Made by a program: the position numbers and the translations under genes. A stretch of 64,000 nt of DNA, from contig CM026426.1 in assembly GCA_014871385.1 (NCBI GenBank), positions 45,494,484 through 45,558,483 on the forward strand, written 5' to 3'. Source of the stretch: Ceratodon purpureus (taxonomy: Eukaryota > Streptophyta > Bryopsida > Pseudoditrichales > Ditrichaceae). A model generated the notes under the pieces. That model did no database searches and had not been told where the DNA came from. It worked only from the letters and a program-made list of their open reading frames with translations. Positions 15,300 through 49,430 of the stretch are shown here, one piece after another. Position 1 is the first letter of the stretch. Every line of letters begins with the position of its first letter.

Positions 15300-18243
15300 T
15301 ATTGGGGAGCCTATACTGAACCCGATACGGACCAAACCAGCGACACTTGAATTTTCCGGCATGCTCCTTCTTGCCCTTGGGGTACCAAAGGACGTGATCT
15401 CCCACCTGGAAATCTTTCTGCCTGTAATGTTGTTGGCTTCATAGAGCCTTGTCCCACTGCCGGCTACCCGCCTCCTCCTGCGCGGCAAGCCTGTGACTGT
15501 CCAACTGTTCCAAGTCGGCTGTGCGTGCGTGCAGTACTCGGGTAAGGGTATAATCGATGCTGCGGTCTGTCCTGCGTGTAGGGACTGTATACTCTGTAGG
15601 CATCAATGGGTGGAGTCCGTAAACCAACTGGAAAGGTGTATACCCAGTAGAGACTTTAAAAGCAGTCCTATAAGATAATAGGTTGGTGGGCAAATGCTCA
15701 TCCCAGTCGGTTCTGTTGTCATTAACTAGTTTGGTCAACAGCCGACCTAACACCTTGTTGGTTGACTCGGCCTGTCCGTTCCCCTTGGGATAATAGGTAG
15801 TCGAGGTGCGATGTTGCGATAAAAAATGCTGCACCAAGTACTCAATAGCCTCATTGATAAAATGAGTTCCTTGATCACTCATTAAAGTCAGCGGATAGCC
15901 ATAACGAGTCAGAATCTGTTCGTACAGAAACTTAGCAGTCACTGCTGCAGTATCAGTGCGCAGGGCCTTTGCTTCCACCCATTTGGTGGCATAGTCGGTT
16001 GCCACCAAAATGTACATGTTGCCGGTCCGAGCTGCTGCTGGCTTGATGGGGCCTACAAAGTCTAGACCCCACTTCATGAAAGGCTTCGCAGGTAGGCTAG
16101 TGACCAACTGAGCCAGACCAGTGTTGGCTAAGCCGCCGACCCGCTGACACTTATCACATGCTCTGCAGTACTCAGACACATCCTTGTGCATTGTCGGCCA
16201 CCAGTAACCCGCATCTAGGATCTTTCTGGATGTGATGTCTTGTGAAAAGTGCCCCCCTGCGCAGCCGTCATGCATTTCCCTCATCACTGTCACTGCGTGT
16301 ACAGGGTCGAGAACTCTGCGTAGCACCAGGTCTTGTCCCTTCTTGTACAGCACATCCTGAATCAGAGTATATGGTAATGCCCTTAGGGTTAATCTCCGCT
16401 TCTCATCCTTGGTCATCGTGGCAGTGGGTTCACCCGTGCGCAGGTAGTCCATGACGTCCTGGAGCCATTCTGGCTTGACATAAAAGAGTCTTGCGTCTGG
16501 AAGCTGGTTTGGAACTCCTGTTGGCGCCTCGCCATTCAGAAGTCGGCTAAGCAAGTCGGCCGCGCCATGCGTCTTACCGGGCTTATACACCACCGTGAAA
16601 TTGTATTCCTGGAAGAGCAGTAGCCAATGTGCAATCCGCCCCGACACTTGGGGTTTGTTAACCAGATACACAAGGGCCATGTGGTCCACATAAAAAACCA
16701 GCTTGCTTCCCAAAAGGTAATAGCGATATTTATTTAAAGCATACACCATAGCTAGAGCCTCTTTTTCTGTTGTTGTATAATTCTTCTCAGTTGTATTCAA
16801 CAATCGAGATGCATAAGAGATGGGCTGATCACACTTCCCATTCTGATTCTGAGCCAACATGGCTCCCACTGCGATATCTGAAGCATCGGTGTGAACGTGG
16901 AACTCCAGATCCCACCTCGGGGCAACCAGAATTGGAGCATTGGTATACCTGTCCTTAATATCCACCCACGCAGCTTCGCACTTCTTGACCCATTTGAACT
17001 CCTTAGTCTTCCTCATCAACCTGGTGATGGGCTCCATGATGTGAGCATAGAATTTGATGTAGATTCGATTGAACTACGCAAAACCGTTAAAGATTTGGAC
17101 GTCGGTTGCATATTGATGTCGAGGCATATCCTGAATGACCTGAATCTTCTTAGGGTCTGGCATCTTGCCTGCCTTAGAAACCACATGCCCCAAAATGATG
17201 CCAGAAGCTACCAGAAAAGCACACTTTTCGGGGTTCAAGCTGATGCCATACTCCCGGCATTTTTCAGAACACAGTCGCAGCTTGAGCAGATGGTCGGCTA
17301 TGTCACTCTAGACGGTAAAGTTGTCTAAGAACAGCATGAGAAGCTCGAAGTATTCCTTGAATGCCTTGTTCACAGCCCTCTGGTAAGTCGGCGGTGCATT
17401 GGTCAAGCCAAACCGCATGACTACCCATACGAAAGCACCCCACTCCGTGATGAAGGCTGTCTTGTGCCTGTCCTCTGGGGCAATGGAAATCTGGTAGTAG
17501 CCCGACCTACCATCCAGGAAGGTATACATTTCGTAACCTGCCACAACATCTAAGACCTCTTCAGTAAACGGCAGGGGGTAAGGATCCTTCCTGGTAGCAG
17601 CATTTAATTTTCGATAATCAATACAAATGCGTAATTGACCATTTTTTTTAGGGACAACAACAATAGGTGAGAGCCAAGTCGCCTCCTCGACTGGTACAAT
17701 GAACCCAGCTGCCAGGAGCTTGTCTATGTCCTGTTTGACAATGCTGGCATAGTTAGGGTTCATCCTGTATCGAGCTTGATGGCTTGGAGGAACATCCTTC
17801 TCCAATACGATTTGATGCTGGGCTACTGAAGGAGGGATGCCCTTCAGATCTTTGTAAGTCCAAGGAAAAACATTTGTATACTCTCGTAAGAGATCCTCCG
17901 CTGCTTTGGCTAAAGCTGGCTCCAGGTGGCTACCAATCTTCAAAATCTTGGGATCTTCCTCAGTGCCGACATTAATCTTCCGCAGTTGTTCCTCCTTGGT
18001 TAAATTCCATGCTGCCACCTTCATCTCCGTTAGCTTCTCTTGTACTGGGGTCTCATCAACCTGCACCTCTTCCTCTGTAAAGGTATAGAAATTCTCTGGA
18101 TACGTCGCAGAATCGAGGGTAGGAGAAGGTGCCTTCGCTGAGTCGGCAATGTCCAAGTCGGCTCGTAAGTCGGCTGCGTCAAAGTCGGCCTTGCAAAGGT
18201 CCGGTTGATACAGGTCGGCTTCGTCTTGTAGTGGAACGCGCAA
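15300..18243 (-). mobile_element. Gypsy-2 reverse transcriptase, RNase H and integrase region
   Basis: Part of Gypsy-2. RT blocks include the WLSPIVVVPKKNGQLRICIDY segment, FLDGRSGYYQI and the FLDNF active-site equivalent. RNase H carries [15 protein letters not shown] and the [10 protein letters not shown] block. Integrase shows the HHCC-type CRACDKCQR finger, [21 protein letters not shown] and GNGQAESTN blocks. The segment ends with the gypsy WFGPYRVQYRL module. Around 18140-18225 there is a run of AAGTCGGCT repeats encoding Ala-Asp-Leu units upstream of RT. Confidence 0.88.
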
Positions 18244-21881: not shown

Positions 21882-23030
21882 GGGCTTTCACTGGCAGTAA
21901 TGGCCAGGGGACTGTCTGTGTACCGGTCGCTCTTGCTTCCAGTCCTGTTTGGTCATTACTGCCTGTTAGAGTGAATGCTCCTGGTCGGCTGTTCTCAATC
22001 AGTTATCAATCACTCCTGGTCTGCCTCTTCGGCATTCTGTATATCTGTCAATCAGCACTCACTGACCCAACACTTGGTGTATGGTCTCGTTAATACTAAC
22101 CAGCAATTGTACAGGGTTTCTTACAAGAACAAGTAACTCAGAATTGCTCTGTCCACCTATTCCTATCCCCTTTTTCGCAATGCATTAACCTCTGGGATTT
22201 TCACTCTGTTGATTATAGTGCTTAGTTACCACTGTGATTGTCCTGGGTCAAAAATTAACCTTCTGCCCAGGTTTTCACATCAAACGATTTTCCCAAATTA
22301 CTTTAAACCCACCTCTCACAAAGTGCCTAAATCGACCCACGTCCTCAACCCGAGGTCCGCAGCCGACCCAGGTCTCAAATCCAGGTACCCAAATTCAAAT
22401 TTCAAAATCTCAACAGTTTTTAAACATCTTTGAATATTCGAATCTGGTGTTTTTGAATTTTGAATACACAAATTTTTGTGGGTTACTTACCTTTCACCCT
22501 CTTTTGTTTCAGTGGATGTTTGAATGTGACCTGAAGCACCCTCTATCCCCTTTTTCGCTGTGGAACTGCCCTCAGTTCACAAGGTGGGTGTCAGCCAATT
22601 CGCTTCTACTTCCACTGCTCACAGTACCTGCGCCCAAACAGCCTGAAGCAAGGTTAATATGATGTTACTGTCCTTCTGAACACGTACTGGACTGCCACTG
22701 TGTCTGTACCACTGTTTTCTGCCCAGAAAACACCTGAACCCAAAACTATGTCTGTCCCTCTCTACTACAGCAGTGTGTAAAATTTAGATATCTGTAGCTT
22801 GGCTGTGTGCTTGCTAGCACTACTGCCTGCCCTCTGCAATACTGCAATGGCTCTCAGCATATGCCAGGGATTGCTTAGCACCTCGGGCTCACAGGGCAGT
22901 GATTTCAGCACTCCTACGAAACGTCTAGCAGTCACTACTGCCTCTCTGCAGGTCGGATGACTGCCTATCAGACCTCTCTAGTGTGTGGACAGCCTATAGC
23001 AAGCAGGAGATCACATGGTCCGAACTAAAG
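21882..23030 (-). other. Gypsy-2 leader between primer-binding site and gag
   Basis: About 1.1 kb without a sustained open frame, rich in GTCGGCT/AGCCGAC motifs and CTG/CAG-type triplets. Long leaders are common in Tat/Athila-like elements. I see no separate gene here. Confidence 0.55.
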
Positions 23031-23042
23031 CATCGTCGCCAA
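23031..23042 (-). other. Gypsy-2 primer-binding-site-like sequence
   Basis: Read on the minus strand, TTGGCGACGATGC follows the LTR end after one base. The TGG would pair with a tRNA 3' CCA end. The tRNA species cannot be assigned with confidence. Confidence 0.5.
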
Positions 23043-23480
23043 TGATAGAGGGAGGATTTATCAACCAAACCCAAATCTCTATAAACCCATCAAAACCCTA
23101 CAAAACCCAATACATTCAAATACTCCAACCACTCATAACAAGCTAGAAACATACAATACAAGTGGAGAAAACAGTCAAAACTGCAATTAATGACTCAAAA
23201 ACAGCCCATAACCATGGTACAGCAGCCTCTAATGGCTCTCAGACTCCTCTAACTCTAACTGCTCTAGTCTGGAATGAATCAGTGGAAACCCTAATCCTGC
23301 CTCTGAAACCTAGCAGTGTTCATCCAGTCGGTTGGATAGAGTTCATCCAGTCGGCTGGACAGAGTTCATCCAAATAACTGGATGACTGTTCTGAAACTAC
23401 AGGGGAAAACTGCGAGAGTTATAAGGGAAAATAACTCTAGGGTAAGAGAGAAGAGGAGATGAGGAATCTCCGGTTAACAG
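23043..23480 (-). repeat. Gypsy-2 5' LTR (tentative outer end)
   Basis: On the plus strand the segment begins TGATAGAGGGAGGATTTATC directly beside the primer-binding site, as expected for an LTR ending ...TCA on the minus strand. The outer end near 23480 (minus strand TGTTAACCGG) is a guess from a TG...CA rule and from the point where host-like coding sequence stops. Inside are three degenerate copies of a roughly 26-base unit (GTTCATCCAGTCGGCTGG, about 23308-23385). No second LTR copy was found in the window, so length and boundaries are unconfirmed. Confidence 0.45.
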
Positions 23481-25197
23481 AGTGTTGCCGATATCTACTA
23501 GAGTCGGCTGATGGTATTGAGCCCTCCATCGTTTATCTGCAATCCATTGTGCACAAGCATTGTCCTCGGCCCTCCGTTTCCTCCTGCTTTCAACAAATTC
23601 GACTTTCTGTTCTATAAGATAGGCAAATTTCCTGTCTCTGCTCAATTTGAAGAATCCGTCCACGGCAGCTTGACCTTCTACTACGCATGACACGTGAGGG
23701 AAAGTCAATATCTAGATGTTAGCAATACACAGAAAGACAGTTGATATACTTCCTATAGTTGGCAAAATTACACGTTCCGCAAGAGATATTCATTTACAGT
23801 TGATGAATTAATAGCTGAAAAGGACAATTGCTTTGGTTCACTCACTTGTCATGGATTGTTTCAAAAACGTCTCCTCTAATCGGCGACGGGATGGCGATGA
23901 TTTCAGTCTGGTTTTCTGGTGTTGACTCTAGCAATAAGGCAGTATGATTTCCACTAGCATTGGGGGTTGCATTCTCCAGAGCATCGTCAGACACCTTCTT
24001 TGCGTTGTCATATGTCTCATACTCCTCCTCCGCAATGTCCTATTCAATCCCTCGAGCCCTGACCAGAAATCCTGCGGAACGGTACAATGTCACTAAATTC
24101 ATTTCGATCCACTACTTCTAATTGATAGTTAAGCGGATTCTAGATTTCATGCAAAAAGAAACAGTCTCAACGATAAGGCACAGAAGACACATTCATAGAG
24201 CTGTGTGTCAGCTGACTACATTATTTGGTCCAGGCGACATGGGGCACTTGTCCAATTTGTTCCCGGGGTTTGTTGAGCGTTGTGGGCCGTTTATATTCAC
24301 ATCGTTTGCCACGTCCATTGCCGCGAAACCTTCAACAGCTTGAGCTCCATCTGCAAATGTGGACAACATGGATTCATGTTCAGTTGATGCTGAAATCGAT
24401 TAGTAATTACTACTCAAAAATTCAGGTAACGTGTACATCCATAAGCCCGAAAGCATATGTCACCTCCTTCACCGCCGTCCTGGTTTGATGCTTCTTCCTC
24501 CGATTTTGTACCTTCTCTTCTCATCTCTATCGCAGCTGCAGTGAAAAGCAATAATTTGAGGGTGCTTATGCGTTGTAGTCCACATTGGAAGAATTAAATA
24601 GGACGTTTAAATGTGGAAACTCAAATTTATGGTGGATAACATACCTCTTTTATTTACTAGTTTTCCGTACAATGCAGGGGTGATGGTAGTATCGTGTATG
24701 GTGGGCATCGCGTCTTTAAAATTGAAGCTGTTCACTTGTTGCATATTTAGCTTCTTAGCCTGTCTGTTTACTTCTCAGTCATCAGGCAATCCTTCCAGTG
24801 TGGTCTTGTCTTCCTTGCCAACCTTGTATGGCCACCACCTGCCCTCACCCCGGGTCCTCTCCTTCAATTCTTCCATAGTTTCAAATGGTCGGCGGCCTCT
24901 CCGACATTGCTTTGCGGCAAACGATGCCCAGTCGACTGCAAATCCCAACTTCTCGGCAATCAAACTACGGGCAAATCCAAGATCAATGGCCTGTTGCTTC
25001 CCAATCGGCCGCTGGTGAGTGGCCTCGTACAGTCTGTCCACGTAGTAACGCATCCTTGGGCTTTTAGCAAACTCCCCCCTTGTGTACCAAAACTTCCCCC
25101 CCTTCGTCGGCCCCCACCTCTACAAGCACATGATCTCATTCGAGCTTATGTCAGGGTGGGAGTCCTTGACGTCTCTTGGTGCGCCCAGAATATCCAT
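23481..25197 (-). CDS. Multi-exon gene of unknown function, 3' end cut by Gypsy-2
   Basis: An ATG at 25197-25195 opens a frame beginning MDILGAPRDVKDSHPD that stays coding-like to about 24775 (charged, with RYYVDRLYEATHQRPIGKQQ), apart from one in-frame TAG at 25122-25120. Further coding-like segments on the same strand are about 24540-24430, 24356-24220, 24071-23846 (acceptor cag before 24071, donor gtgagt after about 23846, one in-frame TAG at 24042-24040) and about 23711-23480 (KLSRDRKFAYLIEQKVEF). The last segment runs into the LTR of Gypsy-2, so the gene seems to have been interrupted there. I do not recognise the family. The exon boundaries are approximate, and the two TAG codons suggest a damaged copy. 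It could be transposon-derived. Confidence 0.45.
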
Positions 25198-27547
25198 GGT
25201 TGTTCAGCTTCTTCTCAAGAAAGAACCACCTTAGAGAACCTCAATGCGGATGGCACGCCAAATGTTCCCGGAGTGATGCCATGTCTTCAAAATGGACCTG
25301 GTAGGGAAGTGGACGCCTACGCGAGTTCTCGCACCTGCACAGAATAGTGGTCTACTGATCCGTCATAGTTCGTCGTTTTAGAATGTTGGGTAACAAGTAC
25401 ATGAAACAACACGAGTACTACATACACTTCAGGATCATGTCACTTGAGGTAGCCCACGTTTTGAATGAAATGACAACGGCATTATTAGCTCTAGTCACAC
25501 CGTGCTCTTCGATGGCCACGATCAATTAGAACAACAAAGCAGCCACACTAAGCATACAAATAACAACTTTTAAAGAAAACAAGGTATGTGGTCGGAGAAT
25601 TCACTGATGGCAAAGGAGTAGCATTGAACACGATTACTTTAAAATGAGTAATGAGGCAATTAATCGATATGCAAGGACCTGGGAAAGATGTAATCAAAGC
25701 ATCAGTGAAATCTTCTATACAGAAGGAACTAGAATGATTGCCCTTAGAATTCAATCCTGTACACATCACCTCTCCTCTACATTGCGCTCGCTATTATTAA
25801 CTGGACAACAACAATTTCAAAAGAGAGTCTATAGGTAGGAAAAGAACGAACCTGATGTTCTTCTCGTCTAAAGACAAGGCGCAATGTCCATACACTCTGC
25901 GGATTGAATTAGACTCACATCCGCAAGTAATGCAATTAGCGCAACACACACGGCGGTTGACGCAAAACAATGAAGGGAAAACACTGGCCTATATACACAA
26001 CGGCACTATGTCAAGACCTCTGCTAAGCGGCATCGGAGGGAGATATGAAGAAAGAAGGGATTGTGAGAGTGCCCTGCGCTCTTTATGCAGGTGATTTAGG
26101 GTTTCATTGCGTAGAGTAGAATTGGGATGGACTATATGCGTAGGCAGGATCATAACTCGGTGATCACTGTGTTTGATCACTACTTGCCTGAATCGGATGT
26201 CTTGGGTGCCACATGTAAACCCAGTTATTCGAACATGTTAAGATCACCATACCGTGTTGTCCAGTCTCCCAATGCATTACCCATCTCATCAATCGAGCCA
26301 GATTGATGTGGCCACATACTGCCAGATTGACGAGGATTCCAATATCTGCGAGTCACAGCCCATTACCAAAGTTCACACATTAATAATCTGATTAGACAAC
26401 ATTGTTTCTACATGTACGAGCATTTGAAGTTGGGAGCAAGGATGAGACGTTGACCATGATACATACTCAATATTGTCCGGATGTGCTAGAGGCTGCTACA
26501 GGTGATGGAACATCAAAGGCCAACATTCTGATGTCAAGACTGAAAGACTATATAATGTCTTCTACAATCTTATCCCTATTTATGGAGTAGAGGTATGTGA
26601 TCCTAAATCAAAGACTCTGTAAAGCTCTTCAGATGTCCAATCAACTCTGTCACATCCTGAATTACTATCACTTCTACAAGAATGGCATTGTTGTTAACCG
26701 TGGCAAATGACTGAGAGAAAATGACACAGTTTCCATATTATTCTTATGTGATAGAGTAATGCCGTGTGCCACCTTGGGTCATTTCAAGGACACTACCTGT
26801 ACATGCGTTGTCATTTTCAAAGAAAAGGTATTGCACTAACCTTGTTCAGTAGGTCTTTAAGCCCATGCATCTTGTCTCCATAGAGAGTAACTTCAACCCA
26901 TTTTGAGCTGTAGACCTAATTCCAAGTTAGAAATGGACGACTAACACTAAAGAAGTCTGTAACAACACATACACTTCTCAGTTAATCACGTAAATACCGT
27001 GCATTATGAAAATAAACACCAAGTACAGTTTCAAGAAAAATATGGGCAAGGTATGCCTACGTTACTCTCACGGTAGGTTGCAAAAGAGCGAAACCTAGTA
27101 GTTACCACCTCACACAGTAGTTATCAACGCATGTAATAAAGTAGATAGATAGACACTCAAATCAGGAACTGTTATTTCACGAAGTCCTCAAAGAGCATGG
27201 TCACTTATAGCTGTGCAAAACATGTCCAAAAATTTAGAGCCGGCATTAATATATTTCAACATTCAAATAGGAGACTCTAAATATCCCCTATAATTGTGAG
27301 ATAGATAAAGCTTGTGTTAATGAATTTGGAGAAGCTTAGAAAGGATCTTGAAATTTACTGCTACAAACACGCACTATTCATAACCAGTTTAGTGGTAGGA
27401 AAATCCTTAGATATTGATAAAAGTGGGATACTAACTACATTATAATCTTCTGAGTGTACAGTCAGATATGTACTTGACGTATCATCATCTTCGATTGCAT
27501 CTACAGAATAGAGAATCGAAAGATACAAAACATAGACTAGATGAAGG
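25198..27547. other. Intergenic DNA, no gene seen
   Basis: Moderately AT-rich DNA. The open frames present are short and without motifs. I see no recognisable transposon part, though small fragments could be missed by eye. Confidence 0.5.
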
Positions 27548-27803
27548 GAAAATAACTAATAGAATTTTGCATTAGAAAAGTTTTTGAGTCTCCAAGGGGC
27601 CCTCCAAGGGAGTCCCGGGCAGTTGAAAGGTAGTCCTTTTTTCGTTGGGGGCAACCGGCCAACAGTGCTTGGGCGAGGTCGAAGTAATCATTATATCCTA
27701 GGAGCAGTCCATAGCACTCCAATAAAACAAAGTAGAATAGTGACCAGTACCAACCAACAGTCATTGAAACCGGGATAAAATAACTATTAGCATTCTGCAA
27801 AGT
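27548..27803. repeat. Direct repeats flanking a 200-base segment
   Basis: The sequence AAATAACTAATAGAATTTTG (27549 on) recurs as AAATAACTATTAGCATTCTG (about 27777 on), with the match extending a few bases to each side. The 200 bases between them include the GC-rich segment CAAGGGGCCCTCCAAGGGAG. This could be a local tandem duplication or an old insertion with a long target duplication. Confidence 0.4.
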
Positions 27804-28178
27804 CAATCCATTGTACCCCTGGGTCAGTGTAATCTTGGGTTATAATATTCGAACATCCCCTATTTGATATATTTGATGGGAATTAAATAAGCCCCGTGGG
27901 CAAACTGGGGGCGGGAAATACCTCCACTAAAAAGGCGGGAGGTGCAAGCATGGCATGTCCCGTGGCAGTGGCGCGCCAAATTGAGAGCTGTCTACAGTTA
28001 TGAAAATTTGCTACAGCATTCTACTTGAAGTATGCTGTCAGTTCTATTCATGCACCGTGTGTGTCGTATCTGCCCAATTTAGGAATGGAAAGTGCTGTTA
28101 ATTTTATCGTTGTTCACATTTGTACGGTGTTGTGAGATTCAACTATATGTGTTATTGCTTTTTTTTTCGGATTAGAAG

Positions 28179-28850
28179 ATGGCGCTTCGAGATGTGTCCA
28201 ACACGTACGTGCCTTCTGTGCGTTTGGCATTGATCTACGCTCCAGTGCTTAAGCGAGGTCATTTGTTAGACGAACGCAGTTCAGATGCAGGATTTGCTGC
28301 AAGGAGGGCTAATGGGGAGAAGAACATCGACCTGTGGGTGGACGGGAGCTTATATCCAGTCGATCCTGCAACAAGTTTGCATTCATGCTTTAGGACGTTG
28401 AAAGAGTACTTGGAATTCCTATGCCACGGCGAAGGAGGTATGCTGGGATACACAAAACGCTTGGGCAGTGCACTCACGAGCTTGCAATGGACGGTCCATG
28501 GTTATGAATTTGACATACATTGTCTTCGTCAGCAACATGAAGAATGTAGATGCCATATTGACAATTTGAAGAGCACCGTGTCCTTGCTTGGGGAAGAGCG
28601 TGAAAGATTAGTGAGCGAACTGGTCAATTCAGAAGCGACATGTACAGAGTTGAGGACGTCACTTCTTGCTGCAGCGGAGGGATTTAGAGCAACGGTAGTT
28701 TCATTGCAGGCAGAGTTATCGAAATCAAAAACAGCGCGTGAAGATCTACAAGCAAAAATGAAATACATGGTTGAGACCCCGAGGGGTCTCCGCAAGCGCG
28801 TACACACGTCAAGCATGAAGAATGTAGACGAGCTCGCTCCAGGTTCTTAG
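28179..28850 (+). CDS. Unknown protein with central coiled coil
   Basis: A 223-residue frame from ATG 28179. Residues 1-100 look globular (VSNTYVPSVRLALIYAPVLK, LWVDGSLYPVD). Residues about 110-205 are Glu/Leu/Ser/Ala-rich with heptad spacing, indicating a coiled coil. The tail is basic (GLRKRVHTSSMK). It lies only about 230 bases upstream of the RAG1/Transib-like gene on the same strand. A coding-like stretch at about 28972-29040 ending in a gtaagt donor lies between them. It may therefore be the N-terminal part or a partner gene of the same element; the reading frames I tried across the gap did not give an unambiguous join. A GCGGGAAATACC-type GC-rich stretch near 27910 may be promoter DNA. 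No family recognised. Confidence 0.55.
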   Translation: MALRDVSNTYVPSVRLALIYAPVLKRGHLLDERSSDAGFAARRANGEKNIDLWVDGSLYPVDPATSLHSCFRTLKEYLEFLCHGEGGMLGYTKRLGSALTSLQWTVHGYEFDIHCLRQQHEECRCHIDNLKSTVSLLGEERERLVSELVNSEATCTELRTSLLAAAEGFRATVVSLQAELSKSKTAREDLQAKMKYMVETPRGLRKRVHTSSMKNVDELAPGS

Positions 28851-29108
28851 ACGTTTGTGAAATGCTTCGGCAGTTATGTTTTATAGTGCTGTTGCGGCTA
28901 TTTACTTATCTGTGAGTGTAATATGGAAGCTGGCTGTTGTGAATTCATGGTTTTCTTATTTTGCTCTAAACAAGCGAACCAACTTGCTTGCTGCATTACA
29001 GCAAGTCAATGTGGAGGACATTAACCAAGTGGTGCAGTAAGTATTTAATATCTTCTTTGAAGGAGTTTATTTAAACAGGGTGTAAGGTCATTGTTACCAG
29101 ATGGATGC

Positions 29109-31551
29109 ATGGCAGGATCAGGGAATGCTAAGCGTCGAAGGACTATATTGTGGGCTCAGATTCAACCTCGACTGGTCAGTCAACTGCAGCGATCAAACAA
29201 GGCACGGGGGGAGAGGAAAAGGCTGAACGGGGCAAGAGATTCACAAACTGCTACAGCATGCGCTATTGCAAGCGTTTTGTCTGCAGGTGAGGCTTTGAGG
29301 TTAGGAGAGCAGCCCAAGATGAGCCAAGCAAATGCGGCCGCAACCAAGAATGTATTCAAAAAGATTCAAGGGGAGTTGAGTCAAGAAGTCATGCTGGGAG
29401 TGTGCGATGGTAACAACGTAACACATAGAGGATACCATGCACTCTGCAAGGTCATCAAGCACCGAGTGATGTCTGTAGCGCCTGAGCTGAAGCGAGGTCT
29501 GTTGCCGTCTAGTAATAAGGTGGCGGAGTTGCGAAGGAGCATGAATAGCAAGCTGCCACAATTCATTGGAGAGTATCGTCACATAAACGGGCGCAGAGTG
29601 ATTTCAGAGGCAAGGGTCGGTAAGAATGTGGTGAGACAGTCAAGGGAGGTTATTCTAAATGAAAAAAACAACCTCTTTGCAGACATAAGAGTAGTTCAAA
29701 AATCAATGGTGTTGTTCTATGACATCACGGTTGAAGGTGAGTTCCAAAATCGAAATCTCTGTTTTGTCATTTATCGGAAGGTAGCGGGCTCTTGTTAATG
29801 TATTCGATGCTAAGTGCTGTTTATTACCTTGGTTTAAATCAGAGTTGAGGGGCAGGCCATTGATATTCGTGCTGAAGCTTGATGAGGCGGAAGTGCTGCA
29901 CGGGAAGAAGTTTGAGCGAGTGAGCCTGACACTGATGAATCGAGCCCTAGATCCAGAGATACAGAGAAACAATGATAAATATTTCTCTGTCCAGTCTGAG
30001 CAAGAGATTTGGCCAATAGGGTGCTTTCAGGTGGAGAAGGAATCACATGATATCTTGCAATGGGTATTTGAACAAACAAGCTTTCCGGATATCATTAAAG
30101 CGCACTCAAGCGGGGAACAACTTGATGTAGCAGGTTACGGAAGTTATCCAGTTGAGTGGCATTTAAGTGCTGATATGAAGACCATCAAGTGTATGTATGG
30201 GCTACAGCATGGGCCGGCATGCAAGATGAATTGCATATACTGTGAGCAGAAGCACGAACGTTTGAGGACGTGCACAAGTGCTGAAGCAGAGCAGACTGCT
30301 TCAGCACGTGGGAAAGGAACCTGGCAGGGAGGTTTGTTTGCTACAAGGATTCAAGGTGCACCATGCGACATCGACACACATCCGAGATGGAAACCTATTC
30401 TGCCAATTCCTTTGAGCAGGACACAGATATGCACTTTGCATGCACTGGTTCGAATTGTTGAGAAAGTGTTACATCTGCACTTCATGTTTGTCTGGAACAT
30501 GCAAGAGGGGGAGAGGAAATCCGCTGCAATTGACGCTATGGAGAAAACAATGTCTGCTATTGGTGTAGAAGGGTCGAACTGTGTGCTAAAGCAAGACCCG
30601 CAACTCTCTGGGAAAACAGGGAATGTTGTTCAGAAGCCGAGCCTTGGCGGAGTCTGTGCAAGCAAACTGTTTGGACCAAGTTCGTGGTCTGGAAATGATC
30701 GGGTTTGGAAGGACGTACTCGCTTCAGAATCAAATAACCTGGAAAGTGGGCAAGCAAGGGTGAAGCGCAGGCGAGTATGGGAGACTCTCGAGGCATTGCA
30801 GCCATACTTCACTGGCTTGGTTCAGACAGACGATCAGAGGAGGAACTGTAAATTTGTCATTAAGAGTTTCGGGAGAGCATTTGTTGCGGCACATGGAGAG
30901 GGTATATATCGTGACGCACTATATCGTGAGTATTTCAAAGTGTTAACTGGCTTGTGTTGTGAGCGTTTTAGCTTGTTCGTGGTTTAGGCTCGCTATGGCC
31001 TCCATGTAATTGATGCTTCAACAACCATGTTTGCTTTTTATACTATGTTTACAAGTTCTGAATTGACCCTGATCTTTTGTTGGCAGCATGTGTTGGTGAA
31101 GCACGGACCCTAGTTTATTGAACAGTATGGGAGTTTGTCAGTATGGAACTGCCAAGGAATGGAGAAATCGCACCATGCTGCTAAAGCATCTAGCCAATAC
31201 CATGGACAGCATGGTGGGACAGTAGCTAGGACGAGTGTTATCGTTCAACAGTATGAGTTCTGGTATAGAAATATACAGCACAGGTATGCTGCAAAGTTGC
31301 AAATGAGGACTACGGCATCCGAGCAGGTGTTGCCAGATCTAGCACCCCTTGAATGTATGGCTAGGAGGCGTGAAGCATGGCATGCGTCTGGGGCAGGGGC
31401 GGCTAGTGAGGCCTGGCGTGAGAGTCGCACCCGCCAGGGCAGTAGATATGTGTCTCCTGAGGCAGCAGATATCAAAGAGACAAGTAGGGGCACAGAAGCG
31501 GGTGCTAGTGAATCTCAGACTAGTGTAGAAGATGTGACAGATATCACTTGA
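29109..31551 (+). CDS. RAG1/Transib-like DDE recombinase (transposase) gene
   Basis: Three exons: 29109-29736, 29843-30939 and 31087-31551, phases matching, about 729 residues. Seen in the sequence: Asp in KLDEAE (29881), Asp in SADMK (30172), CIYC (30232-30243), a His-x4-His pair in HVLVKH (31087-31104) and Glu in WNCQGMEKS (31162). From memory, mouse RAG1 has catalytic D600, D708 and E962 and a zinc site C727, C730, H937, H942. Order agrees, and spacing is close: 97 against 108 residues, then about 281 against 254. GL lies nine residues after the second Asp in both, and FIEQYGSLSVW parallels IIERDGSIGAW. This predicts an RNase H-fold cut-and-paste recombinase. One in-frame TAG (31111-31113) interrupts exon 3 unless it serves as a splice acceptor. 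The second donor (gtgtta) is weak. No RAG2-like partner or TIR was identified. A related uncharacterised DDE family is the main alternative. Confidence 0.7.
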
Positions 31552-31850
31552 TTTTACTGAGAACTTTGATGTTAAAAATTGCTAAGCCATTCGAAATGGG
31601 AAGTTTTACACAAAATATTTTCATTTTAGTCTATCTGTGGAGGTAAAATTTTGTGAAGTCCCATATCTTTGTCACTTTGTGGAAGCGGATGTATGTATTC
31701 GGCTGTCATGTTTCAATTCCGCTTTTTATGTGTAGCGGAATGCCCACCTAAGCAACTCGAGAAGACTTTGATTGTGTGGAAACGAAGTACCCAAATCAGT
31801 AGTAATCAGAGCAATAATAGTTCACCTTTATGAGAACCTGAAACTTGATT

Positions 31851-33387
31851 CATTCTGGATTAGTTCTGATTTATGTTTCACATAACTTCATTTTTCATTG
31901 TTTCGTTTTACCTCCACCCATAAAAGAAAAGGTCACCATTATGTTTCTTACAAGTTTCATAATAACGGATACCGTTTTCACCCTTGCCATGCTTCAGTGC
32001 CTTTTTCTTTTATTTGGTTCTACTTGGGGAGCTATATCTCGCACAGTGATTAAGGTGGAATTAGTTCAGATTCATGTTCAACTGAAACTCCAATTTTCAT
32101 TCATATATTTTTCATCCACCCTTAAAAGATAACATATGAATGTTTCCTTCAAATTTCAGTAATTACGAAAACTGTTTTGATCGAGCCTCCATGCTTCAGT
32201 GCTTTATTTGTTATTTTTATTTGGTTCTAATTGGGTTCAGTTCTGTTCACACTGATTGGAGGTGTGTTCTTTCTTATTCATGTTTCACCGAATCTGGCTT
32301 CTTCATTCATTCGTTTATCGTTCACAAAAGTTAGGGTCTCTTTAATGTTTCTTCATCCTTGCCATGCTTCAGCGTCCTATGGTTTAGATGCTTCAAATTG
32401 GATTGAGTTCTGTGCAAGCTGATTAAGGAAGAATTAGTTCTCATTCATGTTTCATTGAAACTTCAATTTTCAGTCATCTAGTTTTCATCCATCCACAAAT
32501 GATGCACGTGCACTTCAATGTTTCCTTCAAATTTCAGCAATTACGAAAACTATTTTGACCCTTGAAGTGCTTCAGTGTTTTTTTTTTTTTTTTTTAGTTG
32601 TTCTAATTGGATTGAGTTCTACGCCTTGAAAAAAGATTACCACTAAATGGGCTAGAAACTGGGCAAAAAATGATTAATTGTGAATGAAGAAGTAACAAAG
32701 TAGCAGGATTTAATTCACAAGTATAATGAATTTAGAAATCTGTAGCAGATTGAATGGTATCTGAAGATAATAAACTGCTGAAACATACTTGTGTTCTTTG
32801 AAAAAAAAGACATTAGACTTTGGAATATAAAGATACTTCTGGAAAGAACCTTGGATACTCAATTGCTTATATTGGTTTTAGAATTATACAAGACTCTGCT
32901 AATGGTTGAACAAAATTCTAAGTATTGAAAAAACGGTGATAGGAAAGAAGTTCCTACAGAACAATTTACATCAAAATCTTCATATCCGGTAAAAGAACAC
33001 TTCAGTGAAAATAATTTATAAATGGAAAAAAAAAAAATTAAAAAATGCACTCAGTCTGTGCGGGCGTGTAAGCGTGGTGGGGTGGGTGTCGGAGGGTGGA
33101 TTCGAACCCGGCACCAGCACCCTGAGGCCGCCACGTCAATTCGAACCCGAAGCCTCGGAACACCAAGCCACCAAGGCTTTGAGGAGAGAGAGTGTGTTCT
33201 GAGCATATTTATATCAAAACTGAGATCCAAAAAATCCAAAAAATTAAAAAATTAAAGAATTCTACATTAGAACTTTAAATCTCTTATTCTGATTTATGCA
33301 TAACTAATAAGCATCTCCTTGTTCCAAACTCGGGATTGCATAAAAAATTCGATTTTAAATTAAGTAGTGGACACTAAATTGAACATA
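31851..33387 (+). repeat. Left arm of a 19 kb inverted repeat
   Basis: About 1.54 kb that recurs in reverse complement at 49431-50985 with very high similarity by eye. The outer half (31851-32625) is made of about four degenerate subrepeats of roughly 190 bases, each with the series CATGCTTCAGTG, GGTTCTAATTGGGTT, TGATTAAGGAGGAATTAG and CATGTTTCACTGAAACTTC. The inner half holds a SINE-type insertion (copy B) and about 170 bases of flank, all shared with the right arm. A T-run lies near 32578-32595. The left arm starts 300 bases after the recombinase-like gene. Confidence 0.8.
32626..33219 (-). repeat. tRNA-like SINE-type repeat, copy B (inside left arm)
   Basis: Same family as copy A but in reverse orientation. 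The B-box (GGTTCGAATCC on the minus strand, 33108-33098) and the GTGTCGGAGGGTGG-type flank are preserved. Because the same insertion at the same position is present in the right arm, it predates the event that made or last homogenised the two arms. Confidence 0.6.
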
Positions 33388-34362
33388 GAGTCCTTGCAAA
33401 TCAGATTTTATGCTTAATAATCTTGTGTTTGCATATATAACAAGCTTTTCACTAATCCAAATCTGGAATTGCAAAAGGTACTTCATTCTAAAGAAAAGGA
33501 ATGTCCACCCGAATTTGAGCAAAGCAAGCAATCAACAAATACACGCAAAGCTGTGTTGAAGCTTCAACAAAGTGGACACCAAGCGTAAGTAACTGAAACA
33601 AGTCAAATTGTGGATCACATATGCATATGTAAGTCTGTAAAAATCGAAGTCTATCAACACAGAAATTGTTTATCATCACATAAACATTGAAGTCTATCAA
33701 CACATAAATTTTTTTCTAATTGTTGGTAATTTCAAGAACATTAAGTAATCAGCTCTGTACAAATGAGCTTCAGAACCAGAACATCAAGGCACTGCCTTAC
33801 ATGACCAAAAGGCATTCCCTTACATGCCCACTACTCAATTCACATCATTCATTGTAATACATAATTATAGCCAATGATCAACCACTCGATAACAAAACTC
33901 TTTCAGTTTGTATATGATAGGAAGAAGTACATGCTGGTGTATTCCAAAGAGTAGAGTCGAACTTGATCAAGACCCGAGTGCTTCAGATTCTTATCAATGT
34001 GCATAGATATTTACACTGAAGCATCGAAGAAGAATTAATGGTTGCTAAGCAATGCATCACACACCAGCACTGACGACCATGAGTATACCTGCACGGCCAC
34101 AAATCAAGGATAGAATTTCAGCCCTTCATACTTACGAAGTGGACAGATATTAGCAATTCAGAGAGTTCAGAATTGTGGGAAAAAAAGGGCACATTTTCAG
34201 ATTCCATTGCAAAAAAGATAATACATTACGTGCACATGTGACATGCTGTTGTGCTAAGAAACGGAAGGGTCTAGTGAAGATTGAACTTCTATCTGCAGCT
34301 AGTCTTCTAAAAGTGTATATATGCTATCTTTCAGAGGCAGCTAAAACTTCCTTCGTGGTCCT
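33388..34362. other. Intergenic DNA inside the inverted repeat, no gene seen
   Basis: About 1 kb of AT-rich DNA between the left arm and the 3' end of gene P1. Homology with the sequence inside the right arm fades within some 30 bases of the arm edge. No motif-bearing frame. Confidence 0.5.
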
Positions 34363-36564
34363 TCATGTTGGAGTAGTAGGAAATTTTGCTTCTGCTGCGG
34401 CTGCACATGCAATGTTCACAATGTCTCTTAACTCGGCGGGATCCACGGTTCCAGGAGGAGTTCCAACGATCAGCTCAAGTTTTGCATCTACGAGTGGGCT
34501 GCAGCGGGATGATGCCGTGTCGTGGCCTGCATCGTCGACTTTGGAAACTAACTTCTTCGGGGTATCACTTGCAGCAGCCTCTCTTGGCTTTCCGCACGTC
34601 GTTGCTGTTGTGGCGCCGCTTCGTACTTCGACGACCTTGTTCTTGTGAACAGTTACTTCTTCACAAGAGGGTGCTTTAGTGGTGACACGAGGTGCATCGA
34701 CACGTGGTGGAAAAGCAGGCTCTACAGACATGTGCTCAAGCACTTCGTCATCGGGCCCATTTTCGAGCAGTGCTGGAAGACAAGCTCGCTTGGGGGAGGA
34801 GATCAGTGGTGACGGTTCATCAGTGGTCTTCCGCTTTGTGAATTGTATCTTTGCTTCAGAGCGACTCAGCGGAGGTGCCCAACCTTCTCTCTTCACCGCT
34901 GCTGCAGCGGTGCGTGCGGTAGCAAAGTCAGACTTGAAGCCCCATTGTCCCATCCAGCCAGCACATGGCTTGGCATTGCAGCCAGGACAGCGTGGTGAAG
35001 CATTGAGGGCGACCAGGAACAAACATATTGGGTGGAGAAGACATCCGCAAGGGAGGTTTGCTAAAGCCATGTCAGCCCAGTAGCGTCCGCACCCCACACA
35101 GGGGAGGTGCGTCTTCAGCGGCACCACTTCTCCAAGGTTCACAGGAAATGTTGTATAAAAATGATGTGGGCGTATACAACTCTCTTGAACTATGAGAACA
35201 TCAATTTTTGCTTCAAGTATCTTAATGGACTCCTGAAGCTGCAGCAGCTGAGAACGTAAATTGGCGGCAGCTTCGGTCCAGTGCTTAATCTCAGGGTTTA
35301 GGGTCGCCAGGTTGGTAGACACGGCAACTGCATCCTCCATGAGTGATCTCAGGCGCGCATCAATCACCTTCTTCGCGGCGTCATCCATCGAAGTCATTGC
35401 TTGCTTGGAATGTTGGATACCAGCAAACTCGTCCCACTTGGTCTGCTCCAACCGCTGCAACTCCTGTCGCCTAGATTCCCGCATTGCAAGCGCTATTTCA
35501 ACGCGCTCCAGTTCATCCTTCATCTTGATGAGTAATCCTTCTTTGAAATCCCGTTGCTTCAGCAGAGATGCGGATCCCTCTACGGTGGCGAGCTTCTGGC
35601 GTCCAGTGTCTGAAGTAACCTCAAGGGGTTTCTTCTTACTGCTTGCCGAGGCTGTTGCAGGAGTGGGCGGAAGCAGGTTCGGAGTTGGAGCAGGACCCTT
35701 GACCACCACACTTCGACGGCTCACAGGTGACTTCCGGATCGGCACTTCGACTTCAGGCTCTGGAGCACGTAGTTGTCGCACAATACCTCCTGGACGCGGC
35801 ACACCTCCCTCAGAGATGGTTTTTGCTGCCGCATTCTTCTCGCGTACCACCTTATCGACTACTGCTCTGAACACTTTCAGCATCGCCTAGATCTGCTCAC
35901 GCAAGCACGGCGGTGTGAGCTTCGCTGGATTCAGCACTGGACTTTTGAGGCGGCTCTGCGTACACAGAAGCAACAGTTAGTCTATGATGATATGATCCAA
36001 ATCAACGAGGAGAAGACATACATCAAAATTAAGGAGACTTACTTTCGCTATCTCAGCAGCACCTTCGGCCCAGTTGATTTTCCAACGTTTGGCATCAAGC
36101 ATTAAGCCCCTGACAAATGCCGTGCCAAATTCGCCATTGTGTGGAGCTGTCCCCCCATAAACGCGCTGGTACATCCTAAGTGCCCTCGCTGCAACATCCT
36201 CTGTCATATGCCGCAATGGATGGCGATTTTCATTCTTGTTGAGCGGATAGGTGCCCACAATTGCTTCAAGTGGCAGGTTGTGCTCTTCCTTGAGTCGCTT
36301 GAATGGGACGCCGCTACCACATAGTCCTCCCACGTCAACAAAAAAATCAGAGCTATAGCATGCGGCGTCTCCAAGCAGAAATGGAGCCACGCTTGTGAGG
36401 TGCTTCCCCATATTCTCACCCCCTCCTCTCAAGTCGAATGCCTCAGCCCAAATCGAAGGATTGATGAAATCAGAACTCAAAGGTGCTTCAAAGGAGCTAG
36501 TCTCACTAGAACTCGCCTGAGCTGCTGGCACAACCACTCGTTGTGGCTTCTTGCTTTTCCCCAT
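34363..36564 (-). CDS. P1: unknown protein with coiled coil and variant RING finger
   Basis: Exon 1 is 36564-36043 (174 codons, ATG MGKSKKPQRVVV). A gtaagt donor and an 87-base intron (36042-35956) follow, then exon 2 from 35955 to the TGA at 34363, in phase. The N-terminal block (GGLCGS...VYGG...INWAEG) is homologous to P2 and P3. Exon 2 has a Pro/Ser-rich linker, a coiled coil and then a cysteine cluster at about 34975-35105 with the pattern C-x2-C-x13-C-x-C-x2-H-x2-C-x11-C-x2-C. That is a RING-like order and would suggest zinc binding and perhaps E3 ligase activity (inference). The tail is basic and low-complexity with PKRACLP. One in-frame TAG (35889-35887) lies near the exon 2 start; a downstream acceptor ending at that TAG would also keep frame. 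Family not recognised. Confidence 0.6.
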
Positions 36565-38485
36565 CGAGCTAGGTTGCTACAGCAGAATTAAGGAGGAGTT
36601 TGGGAGAGAAGATGCGGGGTTGAATGAGAAAGTTGGTTGCAGGGCATAGAGAATGAGAGAACATCTTCCTGGAGGTGTGAGTCTAATATCCTGAAGTCCA
36701 TGTCCTTCTTAGTTAAACGTATCATCATTGCATGGACATGATTTGGAAAAAGTCAACTTACGTACTCGTGATGTGGTCTGTTAAATCAATGAAACGGGTG
36801 GATTATTTCTGAACCTCTCCCGCCCGTTTAGTATTCTGGGTACGCATCAAGGCTTATCATGATATTGTGGGATTAGAAACACTATTCCATGCGGATATAC
36901 AACAGTGTGTACACGTTAGTGGGGCTTAGAATCTGTACCGCAGATGTAACCTGAGACCTTGCTTGTTTGGCTTGGGCATTATTAAACTTTTCAGGATACA
37001 TCAGTCCATTCTGTGAATCTCTTTAGAATAAGCTCTCCGCTTCTAATATTTGATTAATGCTTAATATTAGAGAAGTCAACGCAAGTACTCATGACGAAGA
37101 GAATTTACTCAATGAACAGTAGTGGATAATTTTTAGTGTACATACTCTCTAGTGGTACTAGAAATGGAGATGAACTCGGGGGGTCAGTATATGGTGTCCT
37201 GAAATTGAGGTCACTAAATTGTTTTCTGAGCCTCTTTGCACGATGTATTTTAAATTAGATGTACAATAAGGGAAAAGCTTTTGAAGACGCTCGTACTCCT
37301 ATTTGAATAAAAGCTGCATGTAAAACTCAATTCAATTTTGTCAACTTTTATAATCCTATGTCATCTTCTTCAAGTTACTAGATTTTAGTTTTATTGAAAT
37401 TTCTTCTTCATTTCTAAAACCAACGAGAAGTCCAACGCATTTTTCTATTTTTCTTTTTTGTGTAACTTTTTCATTCTTCTTCTCCACGTCATTTTTTCTT
37501 TCGTTTTGTCCATGTTAATGTTTTTTCATCCTTCTTCCATTCTATCTTCCATTCATAGTCCTTTTTATAAAAAAATTGTGAAAATGTATTGTTGCTTGTT
37601 ATTTTTCATCTTTATTTTACCCGGTTTCATTTCCCCGTTATTCCCAACTTCATAGTCTTTGTTTTATGTTTTGATTGATATTTCGACTCCCAAGTTATTT
37701 TTTCCATTGTTCTTGGATGAAAGGACACCAGGGTGGATCCAAAAGTACGTTACACCCTCTAAATCCTGTAAAATTGCTTCTTCAATGGCCTTTCTTGGAC
37801 CCCTCTACATCCTACAGCACTCAATTTTTTGTGGATTTGGGTGAAAGGAGTAATGGAGTGTGCAATCACTTCACCAATTTTTGGAAAACATTAGAAACAT
37901 TCTGAAAATTGCACTTCTTGCTTTTCAGAAAAAGTACGTTACAGCAGTAAAAAATGTCACAAAGTAATCAATATTGATAAAAATTAAGTTGCAAAGTACA
38001 TAAAAAATTATATGGTTAAAAAGAGCACCTTCAACGGTAACACATGTTGTATCATTATTTCCCAAGCACTCATCCTTTCCTTACAATTCTTAGCGATCAA
38101 AGGGCAAAAATTTTGACATTATTTAGTTTAGTAAAAAATTAGAATTTTTAGGTGGATTTTTGAAGTATTGAACCATATTCTTCCAATGCTCCTTCTAAAC
38201 CTTGTTTATTTACAATTTAAGTTTTCTAGTACCTTAAATACCCATCAAAATTGGGCGTTGGCTTTTAGTGCTTTCTTGAGTACAATTACATGTCAAAAGC
38301 ACTCCACCCTAGTGTGCTTCCACCCTCTTTCTTTTGTTTTGGATTTGTTTTGTATGTTTCAATAGACCTGGATCTTCTTTTCCACAAGTTTGTCTTCATT
38401 CATTTTGAGCCAATCACAATCTGCACAGCTACCACGCCAGATATAAACAAGATTTGCCAATTTAATGAATACAATGTTGAATTGA
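36565..38485. other. Intergenic DNA upstream of P1, no gene seen
   Basis: AT-rich DNA. The first few hundred bases upstream of 36564 should contain the P1 promoter, but no clear TATA element could be singled out. The remaining frames are short and motif-free. Confidence 0.5.
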
Positions 38486-43182: not shown

Positions 43183-45055
43183 AGGAGCATTGCTATAGCA
43201 ATGCAGTAGGCAATTAGGTGCACTAAAGATTGACAATCAAATTTTGATGTAGCAGGTGCTTTTGTTGTGAAGCCCAATTTTTGAACAGTAACAGAATGTG
43301 CTACAACCCTTTAATGAGATGATATCCAAGTATCAACACAGGTTTTGGTGCTTCATTGCATGGCAATGATTGATGGGATCTAAATTAAGTAACTTTGCAT
43401 TTTGGAGCCTTTAATATGCACTGAAACAAGGAACACAGTAGAATCGAAAAACCAAATATCAGAAATTGAAAAACAAAGGTAATATAAAACATTAAAAATG
43501 TGGTCAAAGGAAACATAATCTAAAATCAAATTCAATTAAAGATTAAACCCAAGAGGAAAACACAATAAAAAAAGAGATGAAAAGAACAAAACACAAAGAG
43601 ATGAAAAAGCTCAAACTTCTAAACAGGGTTATTCAAAGTCAATATCAAAATCCAAAATTGACAATGAAGTTTTTTGGATATTTAAAGTTTTGAAGTGTTG
43701 GATCACTATATCGTTAAATGAGGTATAGGTTGTCTTTCAATTTAAATTTGCAAAATTGATTTTTTTGGGAACTAATTCAAAGAAATAGAAATACTTTGAA
43801 ATTGTTTGAAATATTGCTTTTAAAACCAATGTTAAATCCTTAATTTCTCTACTCTTGAAATCCCTATTCTCTGTTATTCTTCACTATGTTTTCACTATTC
43901 ACTATATTTCTGCAAAACTATTCTAATAAATAATAAATTTATCATTTCAAAACATGGCACCAAATATTCTGCCCATCTAGGCCCTGATGGCTCTACATCA
44001 GTGCCACATCCAATCCACTACTGTAGTAAGGACATGAGGAACAACTTCTCAATGTCTACCAATTTTAGTTTAAAGAAAATAATAATCCATTTTTGATGAT
44101 TTTTTAAGTCACTTTTTATGATTTTGCACCTCTTTTTTTGCAAAGAATTAAGGTTTGGCGTTTTTCAAGGTTATATTTTGAATGTATGTAGGGAACATCC
44201 AAGGTTATATTTGAATGTATGTAGGTTATATTTTGTATGTATGCACATCTTTCTTTTGCAAGTGTCTACAAAAAATTCAATATATACTTTGAAGGAATTT
44301 AATATGGACTAAACAAAGCCCAATTGTTATAACAATAGATATGTTTTGATTCTTTATTATAACCCGAATTTTTGTTTCCCTCCATATCGTAACTAAGTTT
44401 ACACTTGAGCATGACGATATAATTACTTTATTAAGATCTGATTAAAATATAAAGATACTTATTTCACAAAATTTGGTCATACTAACACCTCATGTTGAGG
44501 TCTTCCTAGATCAGCTCATTTTTATTTTTTAATGAGGTATTTTTTAATATGAAGGATGTGTAAATGAATGTTTCCTATATTTAAATAAAAAAATTCATCA
44601 CCAATTGTTTGAAATAAAAAATTATGTAAAACCACAAAATTTGATCTTGAAAATTCTATTGCTTGCATAATTTATTTTTTAAAAATCCCCTCATCTTTCT
44701 TTCCCTTCATCGTTCTATGTTTCTAGACCTTCAATTGGATGTGTAATTTGAATTCGATCCAAGCTTAGTTGTTTAAGCCTGGTGTCCACTTTGTTTTAGC
44801 TTGAAGCCTGATTTACCTTGGAATCATTGTAAGTTGATGACTCAGTTTTCAAATATGAAATGCTAATTAGTTATGCAAATGCGACTCGATATATTTTAAG
44901 ATATTGGTGGATGGATGAAATACAACATGAATGCAAAAAAGTTTCAATGAGGCAAGGGAAGCTCAATAACAATGTCTATATCTATTGAAATTTGAAAGAA
45001 ACATGAACTTGTCCCAATGATTCTTTGTAGATGGTTGAAAATGGAGTTCTGCGCC
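43183..45055. other. AT-rich intergenic DNA, no gene seen
   Basis: No coding-like frame. A local tandem repeat at about 44166-44245 has three copies of a GGTTATATTTTGAATGTATG-type unit. Around 44900-45050 lies a very diverged relative of the ~190-base subrepeat of the arms, directly before SINE copy D. Confidence 0.5.
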
Positions 45056-45542
45056 TTGAAAAAAGATTACCACTAAATGGGCTAGAAACTGGGCAAAAAT
45101 GATTAATTGTGAATGAAGAAGTAACAAAGTAGCAGGATTTAATTCACAAGTATAATGAATTTAGAAATCTGTAGCAGATTGAATGGTATCTGAAGATAAT
45201 AAACTGCTAAAACATACTTGTGTTCTTTGAAAAAGAAAGACATTAGACTTTGGAATATAAAGATACGTCTGGAAAGAACCTTGGATACTCAATTGCTTAT
45301 ATTGGTTTTAGAATTATACAAGACTCTGCTAATGGTTGAACAAAATTCTAAGTATTGAAAAAACGGTGATAGTAAAGAAGTTCCTACAAGACAATTTACA
45401 TCAAAATCTTCATATCCGGTAAAAGAACACTTGAGTGAAAATAATTTATAAAAGAAAAAAATAAATTTAAAGAAAGCACTCAATCTGTGCGGGCGTGTAA
45501 GCGTGGTGGGATGGGTGTTGGAGGGTGGATTCGAACCCGGCA
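45056..45542 (-). repeat. tRNA-like SINE-type repeat, copy D (truncated)
   Basis: Closely matches copy B from its TTGAAAAAAGATTACC start through the body to the middle of the B-box region (GGTGGATTCGAACCCGGCA), then stops abruptly at about 45542. It has the same orientation as copy B and is preceded by the same GAGTTCTGCGCC-type flank, so it may derive from an arm sequence rather than an independent insertion. Confidence 0.6.
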
Positions 45543-45965: not shown

Positions 45966-46737
45966 TGATGCTTATGCAAGAGCTCGCTTAAAGCATGGTT
46001 TATTTGGAATCTGATGTGCTTAATTTGGTGCCCACTGTTTTCTTTGGAATGGTGTAAGTTGATTATTAAAGTAAACCAATCTTCCGTGGATGGATGAAGA
46101 ACAATATGGATGAAAAATGTAGTTTCAGTGATTAATCAATAAGGAAGCTCCGCCAAGAAAACATGGTTTGATTTTCTGTTACGAATGGTTACAACTGTTT
46201 GCAGGGATGAAGTTTCCACGTAACACTGTCGACTCCCTTTCATTTAGCGCCGGTTATCCTCTTTGTATTTCCTCACATTCGACGAATGAAGGTGGACGAA
46301 TGGTCAGCAGCCTTTTTTCCAAGTTATGGGACGTTACACGTACTCAGATTAGACAACATGGAACCAACATCTTCATTGAGCTGACCCAAGAGTTCCATCG
46401 TAGCATTTAATGGGATGCTTAAGCAATTGCATGTACTCCCCATCAATCCATTTTAGAACGGCTGCTTCTCCAAGGAATCGCTTTCTCATTAAATTTTACA
46501 CAATGATGGGAGACAAAGGACGCTAGATTTTTGAAGACGAGAAGCCAATGCAGTGGCAGAGTGTTCCCATGCGCCCGACAATCGTCACCTCCGCCACGCA
46601 AAATTGTGGATCTCCTACAGCATGCACCTCGCTCCCGCCCACTGCAAAGGTTGACTCTAATTCCATTTTCAATTTGCTGTACTAAGCTCTTGATTTTTTA
46701 TTAACCTCCTTCTTCTTGCGAAATCACAGTGGCTAAC

Positions 46738-49002: not shown

Positions 49003-49430
49003 ATGAAAGTCGTGGTTCACTTTATATGCTGAAGCCTAGATTAGAACTCTAAGTTACTTCTAGAGCCCGTTTATCCCGGAACTTACTTTCTATCTCCTAC
49101 TGTGTGTACGTGGAATGAAGCCCCTCGAACATTGAGCATGCACATTTTGTGCCTTAATTGGTTGTTGCTAAATTTTCCGTGGAAATTGGTGACAAGTGAT
49201 TCGGTAATCTCATTAAGTCAGTGGAGCTTACCACTCCCGGGACTTCAAATAGCACGATGTGCTTAAAAACTTATATGGTTCTAAATATTTCAATTGCATG
49301 TGTAATTTCAGTTTGATTTGTTTCATTTGCTCAAGCTTGCTGACCAGTTTGTTTCAATCTGACTTGTTTCATTTGCCTAAGCTTGCTGTCCAGATTGCTC
49401 AATTTGGTGTCGGCTTTGATTTGCTTACTA
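49003..49430. other. P2 downstream region, no gene seen
   Basis: About 430 bases between P2 and the right arm, with short repeats related to the P2 intron (TTTCATTTGC...AAGCTTGCTG). A polyadenylation signal cannot be assigned with confidence. Confidence 0.45.

Follow-up and report, generated by a model that had tools for sequence, protein, structure and literature searches.

Structure of the gene and of its predicted product

A transposase-like gene lies on the forward strand of the window (the whole stretch of 64,000 nucleotides that was analysed here). Its features, together with an open reading frame found just upstream, are the following (positions are those of the window, + is the forward strand):

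28179 to 28850, +: neighbouring open reading frame just upstream, 223 amino acids, coiled-coil-like, with similar GC by codon position
29109 to 29736, +: exon 1, with an ATG at 29109, 209 codons plus one base, open
29737 to 29842, +: intron 1, of the GT..AG type (G/GTGAGT...ATCAG), frame kept
29843 to 30939, +: exon 2, ending at 30925 with a strong donor or at 30939 with a frame-keeping donor
29881 to 29883, +: codon of the first Asp, context VLKLDEAEV
30172 to 30174, +: codon of the second Asp, context LSADMKT, 97 residues past the first Asp
30232 to 30243, +: C-x2-C (CIYC), presumed zinc ligands
30985 to 30987, +: second in-frame TAG, inside the presumed 147-nt intron 2
31087 to 31551, +: exon 3 in the version of the initial annotation, with H-x4-H, a TAG and the Glu
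31087 to 31104, +: H-x4-H (HVLVKH), presumed zinc ligands
31111 to 31113, +: in-frame TAG of exon 3, between H-x4-H and the Glu, interrupting the motif frame
31162 to 31164, +: codon of the Glu, context QGMEKSH, presumed third catalytic residue, 20 residues past the second His

Direct reading of the sequence confirms that exons 1 and 2 are open and that they are joined in frame across the GT..AG intron. The GC content by codon position is 0.53/0.42/0.50 in exon 1 and 0.53/0.42/0.48 in exon 2, unlike that of intron 1 (0.36/0.40/0.37) and of the 3' flank (0.31/0.37/0.37). No known domain was found in exon 1 (Pfam, NCBIfam, PHROGs), while exon 2 is the site of both Asp residues and of C-x2-C. The open reading frame at 28179 to 28850 may represent another gene of the same element.

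The initial annotation described a three-exon gene, and this model holds for the first two exons and the intron between them, but not for the third exon, which contains the TAG at 31111 to 31113. The strong donor (C/GTGAGT, after 30925), when joined to exon 3 at 31087, gives an intron of 161 nt and breaks the frame. A weaker donor (AAA/GTGTTA) gives an intron of 147 nt at 30940 to 31086 and keeps it. Because of the in-frame TAG and the frame-breaking strong donor, the simplest reading is that the gene is a decayed copy, which we would prefer to the alternative of an assembly error.

The residues D, D, C-x2-C, H-x4-H and E, singled out by the initial annotation, do lie in that order at the positions listed, and their spacing is D-97-D-20-C2C, followed by H4H-20-E. 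Of the local contexts that were likened there to RAG1, a G-L pair is present nine residues past the second Asp, FIEQYGSLSVW is present, and the W at 31144 stands six positions ahead of the Glu (W-x5-E), but the YF ahead of the His pair appears only if the weaker donor is used. A strict pattern of the motif, drawn after the data had been seen, occurs once in the window and in none of 60 shuffles. A loose pattern occurs five times, with at least five occurrences in 3/60 shuffles and at least one in 48/60, and these counts lend the motif weak support.

Comparison with RAG1, Transib and EnSpm/CACTA transposases

According to Kojima 2025 (PMC12730594), C(2)C and H(3-4)H between the second D and the E are a published hallmark of the CMCT clade (CACTA/EnSpm-Mirage-Chapaev-Transib and kin), and they are reported there for EnSpm/CACTA, Mirage, Chapaev, Transib, Plavaka, ESTA, Lanisha and RAG1. 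At our locus, one interrupted sequence shows the DDE residues with both pairs in that place. Since the layout is reported across the CMCT lineages, the motif on which the initial annotation built its argument supports the CMCT group and not RAG1/Transib specifically; the zinc ligands are present as in RAG1/Transib, but they are not family-specific. The main lesson, as it stands, is that a C2C/H4H/DDE motif alone is insufficient to identify a RAG1 relative. The likeness to Lanisha, ESTA, Plavaka, Chapaev and Mirage concerns these same pairs and follows the description in that paper.

The similarity to RAG1 is modestly above chance. Smith-Waterman comparison of the spliced product with a mouse-type RAG1 stretch gave scores of 57 and 58 in two runs, reached by 4/1000 and 3/1000 shuffles, respectively. 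With the C-terminal segment alone, which was picked for this comparison after the fact, the score of 57 was reached by 0/2000, 1/1000 and 1/2000 shuffles in three runs. Pairwise BLASTP against RAG1, with the TAG read as Q, gave an E value of 0.001 that applies to this one comparison. The resemblance consists of 26 ungapped residues, 10 of them identical, which run from the first His to the Glu and end at the Glu. Besides this segment, the product and RAG1 (PF12940) have in common the order D, D, C2C, H4H, E, the H-to-E distance of 20, W-x5-E and the GL nine residues past the second D. They differ in the D-D distance (97 residues in the query, 108 in RAG1) and in that from C2C to H (233 and 207). 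The query also differs from RAG1 in having no E-x2-N-K...FRRFR block, no profile match and no GRP in exon 1. GRP is a landmark of the nonamer-binding-like domain (PMC9435367); the one GRP of the product lies just ahead of the first D, which is not the N-terminal place.

The comparison with Transib turns on the sequence that follows the Glu. RAG1 and HzTransib (PDB 6pqn) score 67 against each other, a value reached by 0/2000 shuffles, and their common block starts shortly ahead of the Glu and extends over E-x2-N-K to FRRFR. The query scores 30 against HzTransib, out of register, and 136/2000 shuffles do as well; the HzTransib stretch begins 11 residues before the Glu, so the His pair is outside this comparison. 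Neither E-x2-N-K nor the following basic block is found in the query, which has E-K-S-H-H-A-A-K at that place. What it has in common with Transib is the general DDE arrangement with the C2C/H(3-4)H layout (PMC12730594). Because the block common to RAG1 and HzTransib is absent, the query is probably outside the RAG1/Transib branch by this test, the most discriminating of those made. As to the premise of the initial annotation that RAG1/Transib relatives are undescribed in plants, it is contradicted by the 39 potential Transib-like proteins listed for plants by Tao 2022 (PMC9435367), a list that may include contaminant records. The window itself is taken to be eukaryotic, judging from the intron in the gene and from the pol regions of retrotransposons.

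With EnSpm/CACTA (the DUF4218 part, PF13960) the product shares the distance of 20 from the second His to the Glu, a basic residue after the Glu and a Lys at Glu+7, whereas H-x3-H and W-x4-E of EnSpm stand against H-x4-H and W-x5-E of the query. The score of the spliced product against the EnSpm stretch is no better than that of shuffles (36, 297/1000; for the C-terminal part alone 20, 959/1000), and the product is thus nearer to RAG1 (58, 3/1000) than to EnSpm. In the same test, EnSpm and RAG1 score 27 against each other (939/1000 shuffles) despite their accepted common group. As these two fail the test with each other, a pairwise failure does not exclude kinship.

Searches of Pfam, NCBIfam, PHROGs and PDB gave no convincing match for the predicted product; the weak rows (DUF7568 at 0.048 for an exon 3 piece, LIC_13387 at 0.095 and two PHROGs at 0.12-0.14) are below the cut-off or at chance level. 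The initial annotation had proposed a profile search as a check of its RAG1/Transib assignment, and the RAG1 model PF12940 was unmatched at E up to 10, in a search whose HMMER filters can drop very weak matches. The DUF4218 and Transposase_21 profiles of EnSpm/CACTA were likewise unmatched. The controls behaved as expected, with 1.4e-193 for the RAG1 stretch against PF12940 and 7.4e-41 for the EnSpm stretch against DUF4218. When the read-through product was searched against the whole PDB, no RAG1 chain appeared at E up to 10, and the best matches were to an ion channel, with E of about 0.09. AlphaFold, run without an alignment, gave no confident model of the product (mean pLDDT 33.7).

No relatives were found in viral contigs or GTDB genomes (protein and pattern searches) or in phages and plasmids (tblastn); since these collections hold little eukaryote DNA, this says little on the spread of the family. 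Within the window there is no second copy, the other matches having E values of 0.66 and 6.1 only. Several pattern matches were rejected. One locus in the viral contigs belongs, by reading, to a tape-measure-like phage protein, and one GTDB locus, from a Burkholderiales bin, resembles the query by eye in pattern only. The 51 pattern stretches of the viral contigs, aligned to an exon 3 probe, reached a best score of 46, and among the best 15 of the 51 most have in-frame stops. Finally, tblastn of the pattern loci L001-L052 gave no match at E up to 1.

Candidate termini and placement of the product

Elements of the CMCT clade have CA..TG termini and target duplications of 2-5 bp. No exact CACWRTG pair with a 5-bp duplication occurs in the window. 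Pairs with up to one mismatch number two, and at least two were obtained in 21/1000 shuffles (mean 0.208). The numbers of general CA..TG pairs (6 and 3) lie within the range of shuffles (2-8 and 1-8, 10 shuffles each). The best of the general pairs, 25523/32609 (13/14, GAT), was rejected, as its right arm lies inside a dispersed repeat, and the repeat itself (31859 to 33388) was rejected as a transposon end because copies of it are present where the gene is not. The pair that we retained as a weak lead is the following:

22710 to 36907, unstranded: tentative whole element, with CACTGTT-type inverted ends and the 5-bp duplication TGTAC on both sides

The ends of this pair have 11 of their first 15 bases alike, and such a pair occurs in 2/1000 shuffles, a figure to be read with the threshold set after the pair had been seen and with several kinds of ends tried. 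Among blocks along the window, the two that contain such a pair share this one, and none of the other 30 has a pair as good. The pattern shared by the ends, with up to one mismatch, matches the window at these two ends and nowhere else (chance mean 1.42). On the other hand, the pair fits CACWRTG only with a mismatch, and over 200 nt its two ends resemble each other no better than shuffles do (382/500). An element with these ends, should they be real, would measure 14.2 kb and would enclose a convergent second gene at 34363 to 36564, and the transposase-like gene and this neighbour would then have the gene order of the RAG1L-RAG2L transposons. Relatives of the convergent gene occur in the window with no transposase-like gene beside them, and no kelch or PHD (RAG2-like) match was obtained for 21 neighbouring open reading frames of the window searched against Pfam with E limits of 10, 0.1 and 0.05.

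We consider it rather likely that the product is a decayed and divergent cut-and-paste DDE transposase of the broad CMCT kind, and that it probably stands outside the RAG1/Transib branch. We favour this reading because of the ordered motif, the similarity to RAG1 above shuffles, the missing post-Glu block, and the abundance of mobile DNA in the window, which contains a dispersed repeat of 1.5 kb and two pol regions of retrotransposons. Against it count the lack of a convincing profile match, of a second copy in the window and of relatives in the collections searched, the uncertain termini and the bluntness of the pairwise tests. The intact protein would have had an RNase-H fold in which the two Asp and the Glu may hold metal ions, while the C-x2-C and H-x4-H pairs, in an insertion that separates the second Asp from the Glu, may hold a zinc ion. 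Such a transposase would, like RAG1, Transib and EnSpm, cut the ends of its own element and join them to target DNA, which would have made the element mobile. The locus is more probably what is left of an ordinary transposon than a RAG1 gene of a plant. The initial annotation, which named a RAG1/Transib-type recombinase, was fair in seeing a DDE protein with a zinc-ligand layout; its RAG1 label was over-specific, given a layout that is not specific, the absent post-Glu block and the unmatched PF12940, and the finding itself is a reasonable lead.

Tentatively, the gene may quite possibly come from one of the CMCT lineages already described (Lanisha or ESTA, for instance), or else from a different DDE superfamily whose transposases carry a C2C/H-type insertion. 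Since an identity of the Lanisha/ESTA type would be a special case of a decayed CMCT transposase, the likelihoods of the two readings overlap. The CMCT group has lineages beyond the models tested here, and Lanisha is a proposed superfamily with an EnSpm-like transposase, for which Maumus, McDaniel and Carey 2020 is cited (PMC12730594). The score against the EnSpm stretch, at the level of shuffles, speaks against such an assignment, though the RAG1-EnSpm comparison fails likewise. Lanisha is kept as a live candidate. Maumus, McDaniel and Carey work on mosses.

That the gene truly belongs, as a divergent member, to the Transib/RAG1 branch seems unlikely. The segment from H-x4-H to the Glu aligns to RAG1 without gaps and better than to EnSpm, with H-x4-H and W-x5-E as in RAG1, and the CACTGTT pair with its TGTAC duplication makes this placement marginally less unlikely; the convergent gene, arranged as in RAG1L-RAG2L, points the same way. 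Yet the similarity stops at the Glu, where the E-x2-N-K/FRRFR-like block should follow, and neither PF12940 nor a GRP in exon 1 was found. The termini deviate from CACWRTG, were selected with a post hoc threshold and are unlike over 200 nt, and the convergent gene is without kelch or PHD, with relatives that lack a transposase-like neighbour.

Also unlikely, in our estimate, is an undescribed CMCT lineage of an early plant or alga, RAG1-like from the His pair to the Glu and not in the rest, and perhaps carried by the 14-kb element at 22710 to 36907. If true, such a lineage would be an outgroup that helps to order the steps towards RAG1/Transib. Should intact relatives exist, they would form a family beyond the profile libraries with a RAG1-like zinc/Glu segment, and a possible outgroup for the RAG1/Transib/EnSpm split.

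That an unrelated or non-functional reading frame shows the motif by mere chance appears quite improbable: the loose motif is indeed found in most window shuffles (48/60) and the databases gave no match, but so few shuffles (3-4/1000) reach the RAG1 score, and the two long open exons have a coding-like composition. Least likely of all is a host gene or domesticated transposase that lost its activity and is spliced around the TAG, for although the donor after 30925 and an acceptor ending at 31141 are in frame and skip the TAG, this splice loses the H-x4-H pair, and the neighbourhood is transposon-rich.

Other genes and repeats of the window

The convergent gene at 34363 to 36564 (-) is one of three diverged copies of a gene family, the others being at 46729 to 48811 (+) and 51721 to 53763 (+). 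The copies are 30-43% identical in their shared N-terminal blocks, with coiled-coil-like stretches alongside; the copy at 34363 to 36564 (-) and the end stretch of that at 46729 to 48811 are Cys-rich and RING-like by eye. In Pfam, none of the three gave a match above the cut-off.

The dispersed repeat of about 1.5 kb occurs at 31859 to 33388 (+), 49428 to 50981 (-), 45041 to 45542 (+) and 923 to 1473 (-). It is composed of tandem units of about 200 nt and a tail with the tRNA B-box-like GGTTCGAATCC; searches for tRNA and Rfam families gave no match in the window. Two of the copies are long, with 96% identity over 1037 nt, and two are partial. The regions at 6310 to 8643 (-) and 15439 to 18243 (-) encode the pol part of retrotransposons, with domains for reverse transcriptase, RNase H and integrase, and their domain order reads as that of the Ty3 type.
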